Source: a virus
Direction: 5' to 3' (one strand)
DNA: 26,137 bases
IMG/VR virus record: IMGVR_UViG_3300023174_000580
Coordinates: 1 to 26,137 of that record
The notes beneath the pieces are model-generated. The model searched no databases and was not told where the DNA came from. It saw nothing but the letters and a program-made list of their open reading frames with translations. The translations under genes and the position numbers were made by a program. How positions within the stretch are numbered: position 1 is the stretch's first letter; each line of letters starts with the position of its first letter. This document shows positions 15,027 to 24,904 of the stretch, one piece after another.

Positions 15027-16070
15027 TCAAGGACCAGTTCCAACATCCAATGGACTAATTACTGTACCAGCTTCATCAATCAAACTTTGTACCGCTGCTT
15101 TTCCAGCTGCAGCTTCAGATGCTGTTGTTGGTGCAGTTGCTATTGCAAGAAGTTTTTGTGGAGTTGCAATAACTTGTGCAGCTGATCTGGTCAAATCTGT
15201 TACAGCGTCAACACCTTCTTGTACTGTAGTTATTAATTCAGCTATATCAGCGCCAAGACCTTCACCACCAAAATCTGGAAATAATGATGCGAATCCAGCT
15301 TTTATAACTGCAAGTAATTTACCTAAACATCCTTTAAAAAAAGCTGCAGCTTCTGCCGGTAAACTTGCAATATAAGCAATCATAGCTTTAACTTTTCTTA
15401 TAACTTCAAAGTATCCATCTATAACTTGTTGAACATATTTGATTGCTTTTGTAATTTGTTTAACAAATCTAATGACTTTTCTAGCAAATTCAATCACTTG
15501 CTTGACTAAACCAGTTGGATCAAGATTTGATGCTCCTATTACTCCATTAATCAAATCTCTAATTTTATCAATAATTGGTCCGAAAAGATTTTTCATAGCA
15601 CCAATAGTTTGGTCAACTTCATACGAAATATCACAAACGTGAGCTCGATTTCTATTGGATATATCTATCGCAGTATATTGAACAACACCACGACCTAAAA
15701 GTGGTGTTGTTGGTTCACCAGCTCTATTATACACAACACCAGCTGGTGTTTTTGGTGAATTTGCAGGTTGTTTAACAAGTACAGTATTAATTCCTGGAAG
15801 AACATGTGTTACTACAGGAAATTGTGCTGACTCACCATCTAAGAAAAATCCAACAACCCAATCACCAAGACTTGGTGCATTAGATGGCCTTGATGCATTA
15901 ACTGGTAATCCAACCATCGCCCAAGGCAAACAATGTGTCGGGAGAATTATTTTATCTGAATTATGATATCCAAAAATACGAACACGAAGTCTTCCATTCT
16001 CTAATGGATCATCGTAGTCTTCTATAACTCCTGTCCAATTATTTGGATTGGCTCTGTCATTATCATGCAT
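15027..16070 (-). CDS. 5: Baseplate hub gp5 N-terminal OB-fold protein with helical C-terminus
   Basis: Residues 10-93 match the OB domain of T4 gp5: NWTGVIEDYDDPLENGRLRV (T4: NWFVGVVEDRMDPLKLGRVR), then LPTHCLPWAMVGLP, LGDWVVGFFLDG and FPVVTHVLPGI. In T4 the OB domain is followed by a lysozyme domain and the needle. Here no lysozyme-like catalytic sequence is seen. Instead residues 150-345 are long amphipathic helices (for example FARKVIRFVKQITKAIKYV and VRKVKAMIAY-like segments), with weakly hydrophobic stretches near 226-262. The needle is encoded separately by the next gene. The ATG (16070-16068) has a good ribosome binding site (AAGGATATTAAAT), 11 bases after the gp27-like stop. It should sit between the hub ring and the spike. 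The role of the helical region is unknown; it could line the tube lumen or bind the tape measure end. Confidence 0.8.
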   Translation of the reverse strand: MHDNDRANPNNWTGVIEDYDDPLENGRLRVRIFGYHNSDKIILPTHCLPWAMVGLPVNASRPSNAPSLGDWVVGFFLDGESAQFPVVTHVLPGINTVLVKQPANSPKTPAGVVYNRAGEPTTPLLGRGVVQYTAIDISNRNRAHVCDISYEVDQTIGAMKNLFGPIIDKIRDLINGVIGASNLDPTGLVKQVIEFARKVIRFVKQITKAIKYVQQVIDGYFEVIRKVKAMIAYIASLPAEAAAFFKGCLGKLLAVIKAGFASLFPDFGGEGLGADIAELITTVQEGVDAVTDLTRSAAQVIATPQKLLAIATAPTTASEAAAGKAAVQSLIDEAGTVISPLDVGTGP

Positions 16071-16081
16071 ATTTAATATCC

Positions 16082-17467
16082 TTATCCTAAACTTAAATCT
16101 ACTACATTTCCATCACCAGAATAATCCGATTTTGTACTTGTGTCAGCCACTTTTCTACTTGTAACTTTAGGTGCTTGGACCAATGGTTTTTCTGATGAAT
16201 TAGTAACAACTTCTGCTATGGTTTCAAATTGGTTATATCTTATAATATGTCTAGTTGATAAAATTGCATATTTACCTTTTAGAGTCATATCATAATTATT
16301 AGAATCAACTAGATTTACTGATCTGGTTGGGACTTCCATATATAGAGTTCTTCCTGGTGAAACTATAAAGTTTCCAGGCAAAGCTATTTTCATTCTTTGA
16401 GATACAAAATTTTGCAATAAAGCTTTTCTTGCATATGCAAATTTTTGTGGTGTGTCATCAGTTTGTATTGAAGCGCCATCATTATCTTTAATGAATTTTG
16501 AAGTTTGTCTAGGCGCTGTTGATATGTCAACAACAACCCTTGATCCAGGCATATCAACATTTCGTTGGCCTTGTTTGTTAAATTCAATAGGTAAATTTGG
16601 ATTTTTATTACCAATTTTTGTTCCATTGTAAACATTATCAACAGTTTTTATTTCTGTTCTAACTTGCCTAGTTAACGGATCTATACCAATAAAAGTACCA
16701 GCAAAAACGCCGTACTGAGTACTCTTAATAAAATCAAATTGAGACATAACTTCCATAGCTCTCACACTAATTATTTCTTCTTTAATGTTTTGATCTTGTA
16801 TATTTTTAACATCAAAAAACACATTAAACATAACCGGTCTTTTCATAATATCTGACAATGTACAAAAATTATAACCTTCAACATTTTCAAAAAACATAAA
16901 AGATGGTTGACCACCAGAATCTACTGCTCTTTTTGCAATCCAATTCAATGCATCAAACGGTTTCAATTGTGGAATAATAATATCATTAATGCCCAAAGAT
17001 TGTGTAAAAACACCATTGAGATTTTCAGGATCAACTAACAACTTTGACGTTATTATTTTTTGAGCTATTTGTGTATAAGTTCCTCTATAACATTCAGCTA
17101 ATGTTTGTTGTTCTGATAAAATAATTTCATCTGAAGCAAAATTTAAAATGTATGATTCAGATGTTTGATTAATATTTGTTCTATCACTTTGACTATAGAC
17201 CCTAAACAGGCGTTTCATTCTAAACAACCCTTCACCTTTGTCTATGTCTATCAATAAACTTTCTGTGCCATCAAATAACAATTTAGATGTTAATCCAACA
17301 GCATCTCTTATAAGAATATTTCCAGAAATGCACGGCGCAAGCATACTCTCGTATATGTTTATTTCTTCATATACTTCATTGAGTTTAACTTTACCACCTT
17401 TTGTTAATAGACTAAGTTCATTAATTCTAAAGTCGGTAGATTGCTTAATATTTAAACTATCAGTCAT
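16082..17467 (-). CDS. 27: Baseplate hub protein gp27-like
   Basis: A 461-aa protein directly upstream of the gp5-type genes, the right place and size for a gp27/VgrG N-terminal hub (T4 gp27: 391 aa). It starts with a beta-barrel-like region (NEVYEEINIYESMLAPCISG, SKLLFDGTESLLIDI). Residues 168-181 (LKPFDALNWIAKRA) resemble the helix of gp27-type hubs that packs between barrels and is followed by the usual Phe-rich SFMFFENVEGYNF strand. The C-terminus carries a MKIALPGNFIVSPGRTLYME segment and then a disordered Lys/Ser tail. Trimers would form the hub ring continuing the tail tube and holding the OB-spike complex. The start overlaps the gp53 stop as ATGA. The similarity to T4 gp27 is structural in style and not close in sequence, so gp27 identity is probable and not certain. 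Confidence 0.7.
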   Translation of the reverse strand: MTDSLNIKQSTDFRINELSLLTKGGKVKLNEVYEEINIYESMLAPCISGNILIRDAVGLTSKLLFDGTESLLIDIDKGEGLFRMKRLFRVYSQSDRTNINQTSESYILNFASDEIILSEQQTLAECYRGTYTQIAQKIITSKLLVDPENLNGVFTQSLGINDIIIPQLKPFDALNWIAKRAVDSGGQPSFMFFENVEGYNFCTLSDIMKRPVMFNVFFDVKNIQDQNIKEEIISVRAMEVMSQFDFIKSTQYGVFAGTFIGIDPLTRQVRTEIKTVDNVYNGTKIGNKNPNLPIEFNKQGQRNVDMPGSRVVVDISTAPRQTSKFIKDNDGASIQTDDTPQKFAYARKALLQNFVSQRMKIALPGNFIVSPGRTLYMEVPTRSVNLVDSNNYDMTLKGKYAILSTRHIIRYNQFETIAEVVTNSSEKPLVQAPKVTSRKVADTSTKSDYSGDGNVVDLSLG

Positions 17468-20068: not shown

Positions 20069-20647
20069 ATGGCATATCTTTTAGACAGAATAAATCAGTC
20101 CTTACAAAAAGAAGGACTTACACCTCGAACTAATAAATCGAGGTCTTGGCTTCGTGCAAAAATTTCAGAATTAAATCCATCAAGACAAAACTTGATGGCT
20201 GATCGTCAAAGACAAAGAAGTAGTACTATTATAGGTAATATGTACTTTTATTTCTATGACCCAAAAACAAAGAATTCGTTGCCATACTACGATAGGTTTC
20301 CTTTGGTACTCCCAATAGAACAATACTCAGACGGTTTTCTAGGATTGAATTTACATTACATTCATCCAAAGCAACGAATACTTTTGTTAGATAAGTTAAG
20401 TCAATATGCGTCAGATAGTCGTTATGATAAGAACACAAGATTGAAATTAAGTTATGCGGCTCTATCAGCTGCATCAAAGGCGTTTGAAGCACAACCATGT
20501 ATTAAAAGATATCTATACTCACATGTGCAATCTAGATTCTTGCAGATATCTGCTGATGAGTGGGATATAGCATGTTTATTACCAATGGAAAGTTTTGTTG
20601 GTGCGAGCACAAGTAAAGTATATGCCGATTCAAGGAAAAAATTCTAA
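20069..20647 (+). CDS. Conserved-looking phage protein of unknown function (192 aa)
   Basis: I cannot name this protein with confidence. It begins with a basic helical region (MAYLLDRINQSLQKEGLTPR, then NKSRSWLRAKISEL), followed by a compact aromatic segment: NMYFYFYDPKTKNSLPYYDR, FPLVLPIEQYSDGFLGLNLH and YIHPKQRILLLDKL. The second half is helical, with conserved-looking KRYLYSHVQSRFLQI and a final ADEWDIACLLPMESF. The many basic and aromatic residues would suit DNA or protein binding inside the virion; DNA-end protection (the gp2 role in T4) is one possibility, from its position next to gp4, but I see no firm match. The ATG has no Shine-Dalgarno sequence and sits four bases after a CATAAATA motif. 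Its stop overlaps the gp54 start as TAATG, so it is co-translated with a tail gene. Confidence 0.8.
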   Translation: MAYLLDRINQSLQKEGLTPRTNKSRSWLRAKISELNPSRQNLMADRQRQRSSTIIGNMYFYFYDPKTKNSLPYYDRFPLVLPIEQYSDGFLGLNLHYIHPKQRILLLDKLSQYASDSRYDKNTRLKLSYAALSAASKAFEAQPCIKRYLYSHVQSRFLQISADEWDIACLLPMESFVGASTSKVYADSRKKF

Positions 20648-21441
20648 TGGCCTTTTCACCACAATTATTTCTATCCAATATTAAAGGGAAAGATGGATTA
20701 GCAAAACCATCTCGCTTTGAGGTCATACTTCCTATTCCAGAATACATTGACAAATTCATACAAACATCTGCTTTAGAAAAACTATTAAATATACCAAATA
20801 CAATCGTAGCAGATATAACAGATTCTATTAATGACATAATTGGTAATAAACAACCAACTGGTCAATCTAAAACATCAAATGCGGCTATTTCGAGATACTT
20901 AGCCATGCAATGTGAAAGTGCAGAGTTGCCAGGAAAAACATTGCAAACAGCTGATGTTAAAATTTATGGACCCACATTTAAAGTTCCATACCAAACTGCA
21001 TACGGCAGTGGTGACACAACTTTAGGATTCTTGTGTACAAATGAATTCTATGAAAGAAAGTTGTTTGAGCGTTGGCTGGAAGCTATTATGCCAAGTGATA
21101 CAAACAATCTTAGATATGCAAAAGGTGTTGACACTAGATATTTAACAAATATTAAGATTGTTCAATACGATGATTTCATTAAACAGATATTTGCTGTTGA
21201 ATTGATTGATGCATTTCCTATTGGTATAGCTTCACAACCATTATCATGGAGTGAAGATGGTTTTCACCGATTGTCAGTACAATTTGCATATCAAAGATAT
21301 CGTGTTGTGTATGATGGAACGTATGACCTTGCTGCAGCTGCATCCGAGTTCTTTGGATCTAAAGCTGCTAAGTTTTTCGATAGTACGGGTAGCAAAGTTG
21401 GTAATTCTTTGATTGCACCCCTAACAAGAGGTTTATTTTAA
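20647..21441 (+). CDS. 54: Baseplate tail tube initiator gp54-like
   Basis: A 264-aa protein with a tail-tube-type fold. The central block (RYLAMQCESAELPGKTLQTA, DVKIYGPTFKVPYQTAYG, DTTLGFLCTNEFYERKLFER) and the later SEDGFHRLSVQFAYQRYRVV strand follow the pattern shared by T4 gp19, gp48 and gp54. The neighbours (gp26, tape measure, and gp48 across the divergent gap) point to gp54, which starts tube polymerisation on gp48, and not to the tube subunit gp19, which normally lies beside the sheath gene. T4 gp54 is longer (320 aa). The N-terminal helical stretch (residues 35-70) could be the part that contacts the hub or tape measure. The start overlaps the preceding stop by one base. Confidence 0.75.
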   Translation: MAFSPQLFLSNIKGKDGLAKPSRFEVILPIPEYIDKFIQTSALEKLLNIPNTIVADITDSINDIIGNKQPTGQSKTSNAAISRYLAMQCESAELPGKTLQTADVKIYGPTFKVPYQTAYGSGDTTLGFLCTNEFYERKLFERWLEAIMPSDTNNLRYAKGVDTRYLTNIKIVQYDDFIKQIFAVELIDAFPIGIASQPLSWSEDGFHRLSVQFAYQRYRVVYDGTYDLAAAASEFFGSKAAKFFDSTGSKVGNSLIAPLTRGLF

Positions 21442-21458
21442 TTAACTGAGGATATAAT

Positions 21459-22199
21459 ATGGCTTTACCTAAAATTGATGTGCCAACATATGAAACGAAA
21501 TTAATTTCGAATGGCAAAACTGTAAAATACAGACCCTTTCTTGTAAAGGAACAAAAACTATTTCTAATGGCAGCTCAGTCTACCGATGAAAAAGAAACAG
21601 TTGATGTTGTAAAACAAGTATTGAATAATTGTATTTTATCAGATATTGATGTTGATGATTTACCAACATTCGATCTTGAACACCTGTTCATGCAACTTAG
21701 AGCAAGATCGGTTGGTGAAGTTGTTAATTTAAAATACAACTGCAACAATACCGTTAAAGATGATAAAGACGAAGAAAAAGTTTGTGGATCATTAGTTAAA
21801 TTTGATTTGAATATTTTAGATATCAAACCAATCATTGATGAGAAACACTCAAGCAAAATTGAGATTAGTGATAAATTGGGTATTATGATGAAGTATCCAA
21901 CATTAAGTTTACTCAAAAATGCTGGAAATTTAGCAGATGAAGATGTTGATACAGTATTGAATGTTATTGTTAGCTGTATAGATTACATCTATGATGCAGA
22001 TCAAATGTACTATGCGAAAGATTCTACAAAAGAAGAATTGTTAGAATTTATTGAGAATTTGCAACAAGAAGACATGGAAAAAATTCAATTGTTTTTTAAT
22101 ACTATGCCAAAGATTGCAAAAGAGTTAGATTTTAAATGTAAGAAGTGTGGATATGAAGAAACTATTACTGTGCAAGGCATACAAAATTTTTTCGTATAA
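21459..22199 (+). CDS. 26: Baseplate hub assembly protein gp26 (T4 baseplate family)
   Basis: A 246-aa protein (T4 gp26: 208 aa) of the T4 baseplate gp26 family. It opens MALPKIDVPTYETKLISNGK with the typical VKYRPFLVKEQKLFLMA motif, then VVKQVLNNCI and FDLEHLFMQLRARSVGEVV. Cysteines C95 and C109 in one loop and C227-x-x-C230 near the end (FKCKKCGYEET) probably form a zinc ribbon. In T4 gp26 is needed for hub assembly; its place just before the tape measure matches the chaperone G of lambda-type phages. A strong ribosome binding site (TGAGGATATAAT) precedes the ATG. The last codons, AAT TTT TTC GTA TAA, contain a slippery heptamer, so a fraction of ribosomes may pass into the -1 frame and make a 309-aa product. 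Confidence 0.85.
   Translation: MALPKIDVPTYETKLISNGKTVKYRPFLVKEQKLFLMAAQSTDEKETVDVVKQVLNNCILSDIDVDDLPTFDLEHLFMQLRARSVGEVVNLKYNCNNTVKDDKDEEKVCGSLVKFDLNILDIKPIIDEKHSSKIEISDKLGIMMKYPTLSLLKNAGNLADEDVDTVLNVIVSCIDYIYDADQMYYAKDSTKEELLEFIENLQQEDMEKIQLFFNTMPKIAKELDFKCKKCGYEETITVQGIQNFFV
22187..22193 (+). promoter_or_regulatory. Putative -1 ribosomal frameshift site TTTTTTC
   Basis: In the gp26 frame the codons read AAT TTT TTC, so the heptamer is T TTT TTC, a perfect X XXY YYZ slippery site. It lies one sense codon (GTA) before the gp26 stop. A weak Shine-Dalgarno-like CAAGG at 22173-22177 ends 9 bases upstream, in the range where such elements stimulate -1 shifting in dnaX. The -1 frame then continues for 64 codons to 22387. 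I did not find a convincing downstream hairpin. Confidence 0.65.
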
Positions 22200-22387
22200 T
22201 ATTTGGTTATGATACATTAGGTAATTACTATCAGACTAATTTTGCGTTGATGCAACATCACAAGTATAGTTTGACTGAATTGGATAACATGTTACCTTGG
22301 GAAAGACAAGTCTATATTGATATGTTGGTGAAGTTTTTAGAAGAAGAAAATGAGAGAATAAAAGCTCAACAAAAGGCAAGAAAATAA
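22193..22387 (+). CDS. -1 frame extension of gp26 (gp51-like or lambda T-like segment)
   Basis: The frame is open from 22157 to the TAA at 22385-22387 and abuts the tape measure ATG (TAAATG). After a shift at 22187-22193 it adds 64 residues, RIIFGYDTLGNYYQTNFALM, then HHKYSLTELDNMLPWERQVY and a charged helix ending QQKARK, giving a fusion of 309 residues. There is no ATG or GTG before 22250, and the ATG there has no Shine-Dalgarno sequence and would make only 45 residues, cutting off the conserved-looking first part. The YSLTELDNMLPWERQVY pattern resembles the T-type segments of tail assembly chaperones and the small proteins annotated as gp51 beside gp26 in marine T4-like phages. The coding nature and frame are seen directly; expression by frameshifting is inferred. 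An alternative is a short independent gene from a non-standard start. Confidence 0.65.
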   Translation, partial: RIIFGYDTLGNYYQTNFALMQHHKYSLTELDNMLPWERQVYIDMLVKFLEEENERIKAQQKARK

Positions 22388-24904
22388 ATGGCAGATAAAC
22401 AATCAAGACTAGCAGAGATATACAAGGCCGAGAAAGAACGTGGCGGTGGTGTATTCTCGACTCTTGGAAAAAGAGCTAAAGAAAAGTTCGACCCAAGACA
22501 AATGTTTAATCAAAAAGGTTTTGCAGCTGCTGCACTACCATCATTATTTAAAGCCTATGATGCTGTTGATAAAACAAAGAAAGTAAAAGAATTATCTGGC
22601 ACTAATGCGAGTGGATTTTCTTCTGCTGTTTTGGAAAATGGTATCAGTTCTTTAATTACAGAAACTAGACAAGTAAAAATACATTCTCAACTAGCTGCAA
22701 AAAATTCTGTTGTATTGCCTTCGATGGCAAGAGATATGAATGTTACAAGACAGAATATGGTCAAGTTAGTTAAGCTTCAAGGTGGTACTGCAACAACAAA
22801 AGCAGATATGTTCTTCAAAAGAGCTGGTGATAGAGAAACTGCTTATGAATCTAAATTTAGTAAAGCTGGAGGAGTAGCATCTACAAAACCAACGCAAGTT
22901 GGTGCTAAGCCAGAAGAAAAAAAAGAAAGTGGTGGAATATTAGACTTTTTGGAGACTATTGCTAGTTATCTACTGAAGGGTGGATTACTTGGTTTGTTGG
23001 CAATAGGCGTTGGTAAACTGTTAGAAAATCAAGATGTAGTTGATGGAATAAAATCTTTTATTAAACAAGTTATTTTAGGTATTCAAACAATTATTCAAAA
23101 AGGTTCTGAAATTTTAGGTGACCTTTTTAGTGATCCTGATGTGAAAGAAGGTTTTATTAAAACATTTGTTGCTATTAAAGATTTATTTGTCAAAGGTATT
23201 AATTTACTAGGCGATTTAGCTTCTGATCCAAGATTTGCAGAAGGCGTAGTTCAAATTTTTTCTGCAATATGGCAAGCAATCAAAAAAGCATTCGTTACTT
23301 TAGATACTTATTTGAAAGATCAATTAAATGTTCCTGGTGGACTATTAACTGTTTTAGCAGTTGGGGGAGCACTATACTTAGCAATAACTGCTTTAAGTGG
23401 CGCTCTTGTTGGCTTAGCCGCGGCAGCTGGTACAGCCGCCGCTGCATGGGCTGCTAGTAAATTGGGAATGCCAGGAGGTGCACCAACAGGTGCTCCAACA
23501 GGAACACCATCCAAAACACCTGGTATTCCAGGCACACCAACAACACCTGGAACACCAGGAACAACACCTGGAAAAGTATCAACTCCAGGTGGTTTTAATA
23601 AAACAGCTGAGGATTTAATCAGAGAACGAGCTACAAGAATGGCTGCAGAACAAGGTGCTAAAGATGTTGCTAAAAAAGGTGCTGGTGAAATATTAAAAAG
23701 ATTCTTTACTGGTGAAGCAGCTGCACTTGTTGGTGGTCCAATAGGTGCTGTTTGGTTAACAGCTTTAACTGCATATCAAGTAATAGATGCTTTAGCTCCA
23801 GATGAACAACAACAAGTTATTGATAGTGTTGCCGCTCTCGCTTCAATACAAGATGATATTAATCAAGGTGGTAATGAAAAAATATTAAAACAAAGAGCAG
23901 TATTATATCAAGAAAAATTAAAACGATTAGGTGTTGCACCCCAAAAACTTGAAAGTGCTAAAGTCCAAGCATTACCTTCTGCACCAAATGAAAGTTCTGC
24001 TGAAGCAACAAGACTTGCAGCTGCCGGTAAACCAACACCAGCAGCACCTTCAACAAAACCAACAGCAGCACCTTCAACAAAACCAACAGCAACTGGTGGA
24101 ACAGGAAGTAGTCCTGTTGCCGGTCCTTCAACAACTGAATTGACTTGGGCTAATTTAACTGAACAACAAAAAGATGCTGTCGTTAGAGCTCAAGCAGATT
24201 TTGAACATGGTAAAGGCAAACCAATAAGACATAATAATCCAGGTAACATAATGTATACTGGAGAAAATGGTTTTGCTGCAAAATTTGGAGGAACTCCATC
24301 TAGTCAACAAGGAATTGATTCAGCTGGAAAATCTCACGGAACTTTGGCAAAATTTCCAACTATGGAAGATGGATTTAAAGCACAAAAAGCATTATGGGAT
24401 GGATCATCATATAAAAATTTACCTTTAGATAAAGCTATTGGCAGATGGGCTGGGGAATCTATGCTCACTAATGAAATTGATAAACAAGGCGTTGAAAATT
24501 ATAAGAAATTTGTTATTGCAGCTGCTGGTGGACAATATACACCTTCTACTCATCCAAGTACACCAGATACAGCTTTAGCTTCAGCTGCAAATCCAATGCA
24601 ACGAGATAGTCAAACTATGGCATCATCTCTTGGTTCTATGGGTTCAACATTAGCTGGTTTAATTGGTACAGGTGGATCATCAGCTGTTGCATCTGTGGCA
24701 GCAAATGCACCAAACATGGGTAATGTAATTGATTCAGCATCAACAGGTCTTTCTGAAGTGATGAGAATGTTTGACAATGCTATGGCTTCTGTTACAAACA
24801 TTACAAATAATAGTACACAAGCGTCAGCTTCACCACAAAGTCAAGGCAAATTACCATCTGTGTATGATGATACATTTGCTAATCTATTCCAAAGAGTTGC
24901 ATAA
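22388..24904 (+). CDS. 29: Tape measure protein with lysozyme-like domain (gp29 position)
   Basis: An 838-aa protein in the tape measure position directly after the gp26 pair; T4 gp29 has 590 aa. The first 180 residues are charged and helical (RLAEIYKAEKERGGG, KKVKELSGTNASGFS). Hydrophobic segments follow at about 183-212 (LLKGGLLGLLAIGVGKLL), 316-360 (GGLLTVLAVGGALYLAITAL) and 437-470, as expected for a protein that enters the host membrane. Gly/Pro/Thr linkers lie at about 362-405 and 548-580. Residues about 590-713 form a compact domain with RHNNPGNIMYTGENGFAAKF, GTLAKFPTMEDGFKAQKALW and KAIGRWAGES, the NNPGNI pattern known to me from virion-associated peptidoglycan-cleaving proteins. E606 is a candidate catalytic residue. 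The C-terminus is Ser/Ala-rich with a short coiled region before FANLFQRVA. The ATG directly follows the stop of the -1 frame segment. Confidence 0.78.
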   Translation: MADKQSRLAEIYKAEKERGGGVFSTLGKRAKEKFDPRQMFNQKGFAAAALPSLFKAYDAVDKTKKVKELSGTNASGFSSAVLENGISSLITETRQVKIHSQLAAKNSVVLPSMARDMNVTRQNMVKLVKLQGGTATTKADMFFKRAGDRETAYESKFSKAGGVASTKPTQVGAKPEEKKESGGILDFLETIASYLLKGGLLGLLAIGVGKLLENQDVVDGIKSFIKQVILGIQTIIQKGSEILGDLFSDPDVKEGFIKTFVAIKDLFVKGINLLGDLASDPRFAEGVVQIFSAIWQAIKKAFVTLDTYLKDQLNVPGGLLTVLAVGGALYLAITALSGALVGLAAAAGTAAAAWAASKLGMPGGAPTGAPTGTPSKTPGIPGTPTTPGTPGTTPGKVSTPGGFNKTAEDLIRERATRMAAEQGAKDVAKKGAGEILKRFFTGEAAALVGGPIGAVWLTALTAYQVIDALAPDEQQQVIDSVAALASIQDDINQGGNEKILKQRAVLYQEKLKRLGVAPQKLESAKVQALPSAPNESSAEATRLAAAGKPTPAAPSTKPTAAPSTKPTATGGTGSSPVAGPSTTELTWANLTEQQKDAVVRAQADFEHGKGKPIRHNNPGNIMYTGENGFAAKFGGTPSSQQGIDSAGKSHGTLAKFPTMEDGFKAQKALWDGSSYKNLPLDKAIGRWAGESMLTNEIDKQGVENYKKFVIAAAGGQYTPSTHPSTPDTALASAANPMQRDSQTMASSLGSMGSTLAGLIGTGGSSAVASVAANAPNMGNVIDSASTGLSEVMRMFDNAMASVTNITNNSTQASASPQSQGKLPSVYDDTFANLFQRVA
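24041..24088 (+). repeat. Two identical 24-bp units in the tape measure linker
   Basis: The 24-base unit beginning gcagcaccttcaac is present twice in direct tandem (24041-24064 and 24065-24088), encoding the eight residues AAPSTKPT twice. It lies in the Pro/Thr-rich linker before the NNPGNI domain. Exact identity at the DNA level suggests a recent duplication by slippage. Confidence 0.85.

Follow-up and report, generated by a model that had tools for sequence, protein, structure and literature searches.

The stretch of DNA considered here, from an uncultured T4-like phage – the window, 26,137 nucleotides in length, positions 1 to 26,137 of IMG/VR record IMGVR_UViG_3300023174_000580 – carries on its contig one gene of the PF12322 family, a homologue of T4 gp26, which ends with the codons AAT TTT TTC GTA TAA. 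An earlier note on this DNA proposed that ribosomes slip on the heptamer T TTT TTC and continue in an overlapping −1 frame, in the manner of the lambda G/GT pair. Direct reading bears out the elements on which the proposal was built: the heptamer stands in phase one sense codon before the gp26 stop, the −1 frame stays open for 64 codons and closes right before the next ATG, and that frame has no usable start codon or ribosome binding site of its own. Comparison with related loci strongly supports both the frameshift and the parallel with lambda, and we put at roughly 95% the probability that the end of gp26 in the window bears a real, functional-looking programmed −1 frameshift.

Table 1. Features of the gp26 locus and its neighbours, in window coordinates.
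Feature	Position	Strand	Remarks
gp26-family gene (probable short tail assembly chaperone (TAC), TAC-N / G-like)	21459..22199	+	246 amino acids; PF12322 E 1.2e-63, phrog_150 E 7e-71
In-phase slippery heptamer T TTT TTC	22187..22193	+	direct reading; relatives have T TTT TTN at the corresponding place
0-frame stop TAA	22197..22199	+	one sense codon past the heptamer
−1-frame extension ('gp51' / T-like part)	22193..22387	+	64 codons plus TAA 22385-22387
838-amino-acid open reading frame in tape-measure position	22388..24904	+	three hydrophobic segments; tape measure identity putative
Tail-tube-like gene, directly 5′ of gp26 (context)	20647..21441	+	phrog_45 tail tube E 1.2e-31

The gp26-family gene is preceded by a Shine-Dalgarno (SD) sequence, GAGGA, at 21448-21452, a few bases 5′ of its ATG. 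In the −1 frame the earliest ATG, GTG or TTG codons are TTG 22247 and ATG 22250, some 20-21 codons into the extension; no SD site was found before either, and a product begun at either would lack the conserved YDTLGNYYQTNFAL. An open stretch of 65 codons arises in this frame with probability 0.0016 when the bases of the segment are shuffled, the two remaining frames contain many stops, and the extension's stop abuts the following ATG (22385-22390). The extension hits phrog_634 (E 1.2e-28), annotated 'baseplate hub assembly catalyst', and aligns also with the C-terminal part of phrog_150, the profile of the gp26 family. The predicted shift product is a 309-amino-acid fusion (21459-22193 joined to 22193-22384) in which ...GIQNFF would run on into RIIFGYDTLGNYYQ...; the predicted junction peptide reads ...GIQNFFR / IIFGYDTLGNYYQ...

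The heptamer by itself is unremarkable, since 5 of 8282 codon pairs in the window's main genes spell T_TTT_TTN in phase. It is the constant place of the heptamer and its conservation, unlike its mere presence, that are remarkable. IMG/VR loci gathered from several queries were combined with annotated phages and near-copies removed, leaving 170 non-redundant loci: 162 of these have an in-phase T TTT TTN at the end of gp26, each with a −1 extension (N is C in 130, T in 15, A in 14 and G in 3), and in all but one the 0-frame stop lies 0-2 codons past the heptamer. The first codon of the Phe pair is TTT in 162/162 loci, compared with 71% for Phe elsewhere in these genes; in the remaining conserved Phe columns, the share of the commoner codon is just 54-92%. 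The codon before the pair (AGT, AAT, TCT, GAT or GCT) ends in T in every heptamer locus, and in 17 loci the protein has changed from FF to FL (TTA or TTG) with the six Ts retained. Elsewhere in these genes the T_TTT_TT spelling is used for 13 of 536 Phe-Phe and Phe-Leu pairs. That six Ts are frozen across F-to-L changes, in a spelling that is rare elsewhere, marks selection acting on the nucleotides and not on the protein.

The case made by comparison is not confined to the heptamer and its conservation. On this evidence the overlapping −1 frame is translated, has no start codon to serve it, and is homologous to the C-terminus of T4 gp51. An extension is present in 162/162 heptamer loci, reaching 55-68 codons past the stop wherever the contig is long enough. 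Past the stop, per-base entropy at the three −1 codon positions is 0.91, 0.73 and 1.39, the third position being the most variable – a codon-position signal – and residues ahead of the first ATG (L..YY..NF) are conserved. No ATG, GTG or TTG occurs ahead of codon 12 in 56 of the 162, and an SD core lies 5′ of the first start codon in just 1 of 161. The point of entry is narrowed further by Aeromonas 65, phiAS5, S-N03 and Melnitz-2, where a −1-frame stop stands immediately 5′ of the heptamer: entry is here possible only within some ten bases, at the heptamer. Variation within the extension includes one close relative that is missing 7 codons (SLTELDN), the frame being kept.

Stimulatory elements were assessed by scoring downstream structure against shuffles that keep the −1 protein, and SD-like pairing against codon choice; the sequences compared are related and the tests hence not independent. 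S-PM2-like loci have more RNA structure 3′ of the heptamer than expected (mean z −2.49, with 68% of them below p 0.05). In 25 cyanophage-type sequences a 10-bp hairpin situated 6 nt past the heptamer is convincingly supported by paired changes (10 double-changed cells, a result reached in 0/500 shuffles). Covariation is weak in two other groups, and RNAalifold, run on the 16-row alignment of one of these, predicted no pairs. Upstream of the heptamer, anti-SD pairing goes beyond codon choice at z −1.66 in S-PM2-like and z −1.31 in Melnitz-like loci, with control blocks at 0.03. The arrangement in S-PM2-like cyanophages – an SD-like site about 10 nt 5′, the heptamer, and a hairpin about 6 nt 3′ – resembles the three-part signal of dnaX; the cyanophage hairpins themselves differ between subclades.

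We infer that slippage takes place in cells, along with its rate, and a chaperone role for the products. The majority of ribosomes would end at TAA 22197 and release gp26, while a minority would shift by −1 on T TTT TTC, where both phenylalanyl tRNAs would pair again with Phe codons, and would translate 64 further codons to complete the gp26-51 fusion. Very probably the two products are the short and long forms of a tail assembly chaperone. Analogy with lambda G/GT and with T4 gp26/gp51 suggests that the short form would act as a coat on the tape measure protein, the long form using its helical C-terminus to recruit tube or hub subunits. AlphaFold2 models of gp26 (predicted local distance difference test, pLDDT, 86) and of a T4-type in-frame gp51 (pLDDT 83) have the same order of elements, gp51 adding C-terminal helices. 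The highest-probability PDB matches of the gp26 model are 2ob9 (0.75) and 3fgx (0.51), with 3klu lower (0.25), all at E 0.9-2.8. The three – 2ob9 being HK97 gp13 – are structures of tail assembly chaperones (PMC9603447), and the matches are suggestive only; PDB sequence profiles matched no relative.

Several observations weigh against a programmed frameshift of this kind. In the window's own clade neither stimulator departs from chance: the mean z is −0.09 for a downstream hairpin and 0.04 for an upstream SD-like site, the window itself standing at z +2.6. With no stimulators detected, efficiency in this clade may be low, or may hang on the stop codon or on a distant element. The Ackermannviridae and Vibrio K368 have one gp26-family gene and a conserved extension, and the junction is just NTT TTC, which is non-canonical (the sequences read ATT TTC ATT TAA or CTT TTC AAG TAA). 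The model of T4-type gp51, when compared with the PDB, matched no known chaperone. Finally, 56 of the 162 loci have an ATG 5 codons past the start of the heptamer, which would permit reinitiation.

Reinitiation is the likeliest of the rival explanations: through translational coupling, ribosomes that end at the gp26 TAA would start again at a nearby −1-frame start codon and so make gp51 as a small protein in its own right. This is the view taken in public annotation, and besides the ATG just mentioned there are TAATG overlaps in KVP40-like and K368 loci. However, the window's clade is without ATG, GTG or TTG until about codon 20, yet earlier residues are conserved; the near-absence of SD cores described above applies here too; and the frozen six Ts, maintained through F-to-L changes, are left unexplained, as is the in-frame fusion of T4. 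We consider reinitiation very unlikely overall, and for the window's clade, with neither start codon nor SD, we reject it. Slimmer still are the chances of transcriptional slippage, in which polymerase slipping on the T-run would generate mRNAs of mixed length and so the same fusion without slippage by the ribosome. Mononucleotide runs can cause polymerase slippage, and six consecutive Ts are indeed present, but such slippage does not require phase and the runs are usually longer, whereas here there are just six Ts, with C the usual next base, and the ribosomal phase T_TTT_TTN is kept in every case; moreover, the hairpin and SD-like site of the cyanophages look like stimulators of ribosomes. 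Homopolymer runs are also error-prone, but the idea that a sequencing or assembly error split one fused gene has a negligible probability and is refuted by the arrangement's recurrence in 162 loci, drawn from many samples and including finished isolate genomes.

The programmed frameshift is one of two ways in which T4-like phages appear to make a short and a long form. PF12322 genes were counted per genome in named T4-like genomes and in four near-genome-size IMG/VR contigs. One such gene, together with a heptamer, is found in S-PM2, P-SSM2, Mosig, HTVC008M, Melnitz-2, S-N03, V09 (KVP40 type), Aeromonas 65, Aeh1, phiAS5, pf16, DLP6, phiM7, phiM12, RHph_I46 and the four contigs. Two such genes, with the extension in frame on one copy, are found in T4, RB49, Aeromonas 25, Ac42, POP12, AM_K6, CP220 and IBB_35; Campylobacter phage NCTC12673 also has two, adjoining one another (record 15536-16650), the second matched in pieces and containing an in-frame TAA. 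No heptamer was found at the end of gp26 in the two-gene genomes, the junctions read being those of RB49, Ac42, POP12, AM_K6 and CP220, with T4 taken by annotation. The Straboviridae hold both arrangements, slippage and gene duplication. Klebsiella phage AM_K6 has an intact gp26 and an in-frame gp51 paralogue (record 135838-136227) that is only about 130 amino acids long, with the middle of the protein missing.

The earlier note had equated gp26 and gp51 with lambda G and T. The first half of this equation stands; the second does not. In T4 gp51 a complete paralogue of gp26 occupies residues 1-201 (PF12322, E 4e-52), and the 50 or so residues fused to it in frame are homologous to the −1 extension: gp51 is a gp26-like domain with a fused extension, and thus the counterpart of GT rather than of T. 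The note had also held that a gp51 clearly separated from gp26 would tell against it. T4 genes 26 and 51 are so separated, on opposite strands, and the idea nonetheless survives since the T4 protein is itself the fused paralogue.

In a tree of the family the gp51 copies of Straboviridae group as a single clade (100/99) that lies close to the gp26 copies, and KVP40, Aeh1, phiAS5 and Aeromonas 65 fall together; the positions of the Campylobacter copies and of the root are unsure, with long branches. We tentatively suggest a history to which we would give slightly less than even odds. Single-gene frameshifting would be ancestral in the T4 superfamily, with T4/RB49/Ac42-type phages (and perhaps Campylobacter phages independently) having replaced it by duplication and in-frame fusion. 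The signal would have been remodelled by lineage: in cyanophages the heptamer would be accompanied by an SD-like site and a hairpin, in the window's clade it would stand bare, and in Ackermannviridae and Vibrio K368 the slip would be on NTT TTC or some other mechanism would operate.

There are clear likenesses to known systems. Lambda G/GT shares with the scheme predicted for the window a single gene, a −1 shift near its 3′ end, a minor long form and a place just 5′ of a long open reading frame in tape-measure position. The lambda heptamer is G GGA AAG, as against T TTT TTC in the window. The frameshift of phage P2 E/E+E′, reportedly described by Christie et al. in 2002, likewise uses a T-run heptamer; the protein is different. 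The P2 heptamer is T TTT TTG, the same as that found in the gp26-family gene of Rhizobium phage RHph_I46. T4 gp26 and gp51, listed as hub assembly chaperones (PMC3004832), belong to the same family as the window's gene (PF12322 / phrog_150), with the same extension (phrog_634) and with short and long forms, but are encoded by two divergent paralogous genes where the window has one gene and a heptamer. The window's clade differs in turn from the cyanophages in that stimulators were not detected. In Vandenendeviridae and Andersonviridae (PMC12846349) a myovirus TAC gene likewise carries a poly-T slippery motif that is conserved, and its −1 open frame has been mis-annotated as a gene in its own right; these are other phage families, and their motif is GTTTTT.

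A frameshift at gp26 would account for an anomaly remarked upon in 2010 (PMC3037559): that, relative to T4 gp51, the cyanophage and marine vibriophage proteins of that name lack ~200 residues at the N-terminus, and that Aeh1 is seemingly without gp51 altogether. The missing ~200 residues would be supplied by gp26, and in Aeh1 the extension is there, in the −1 frame. The suggestion that gp51 calls in related genomes are mis-started also holds. Judged from sequence comparison, the 'gp51' calls of cyanophages are fragments of the fusion; public calls start at differing, unsupported places or are stubs of 27-44 amino acids (those of Aeromonas 65 and phiAS5 are only ~26 and ~40 amino acids). Hundreds of public cyanophage records hold the locus, and those inspected have either an unsupported gp51 start or no gp51. 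Moreover, one virus family, the Straboviridae, affords a natural comparison of slippage with gene duplication as means of making a short and a long form.

The tail assembly chaperones of T4-like phages were reportedly treated by Vladimirov, Gautam and Davidson in 2022. The PRFect paper (PMC10885494) cites that study for the statement that some T4-like phages have a short chaperone gene and a fused long gene, with no frameshifting; a second paper (PMC12846349) cites it for slippery sequences of the poly-T type in the TAC-N genes of these phages. The genes concerned are presumably gp26 and gp51. As conveyed by the citing papers, the main idea must be regarded as already published, and since the core of it seems to have been in print since 2022 the surprise is limited. 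The window is a well-supported further case of a widespread, conserved and apparently already recognised tail chaperone frameshift of T4-like phages. We came upon no printed account of how extensive the conservation is, of the stimulators of cyanophages and their lack in the window's clade, of the exception posed by Ackermannviridae, or of an explicit link to the 2010 remark.

Downstream of the extension, the 838-amino-acid open reading frame had no match in family searches or profile comparison, and 'tape measure' is a label that its position suggests. Comparison by hhalign of the next gene of KVP40 and Aeromonas phages with T4 gp29 revealed no similarity. Towards the C-terminus of the window's reading frame, a stretch containing 'HNNPGN' looks, by eye, enzyme-like.

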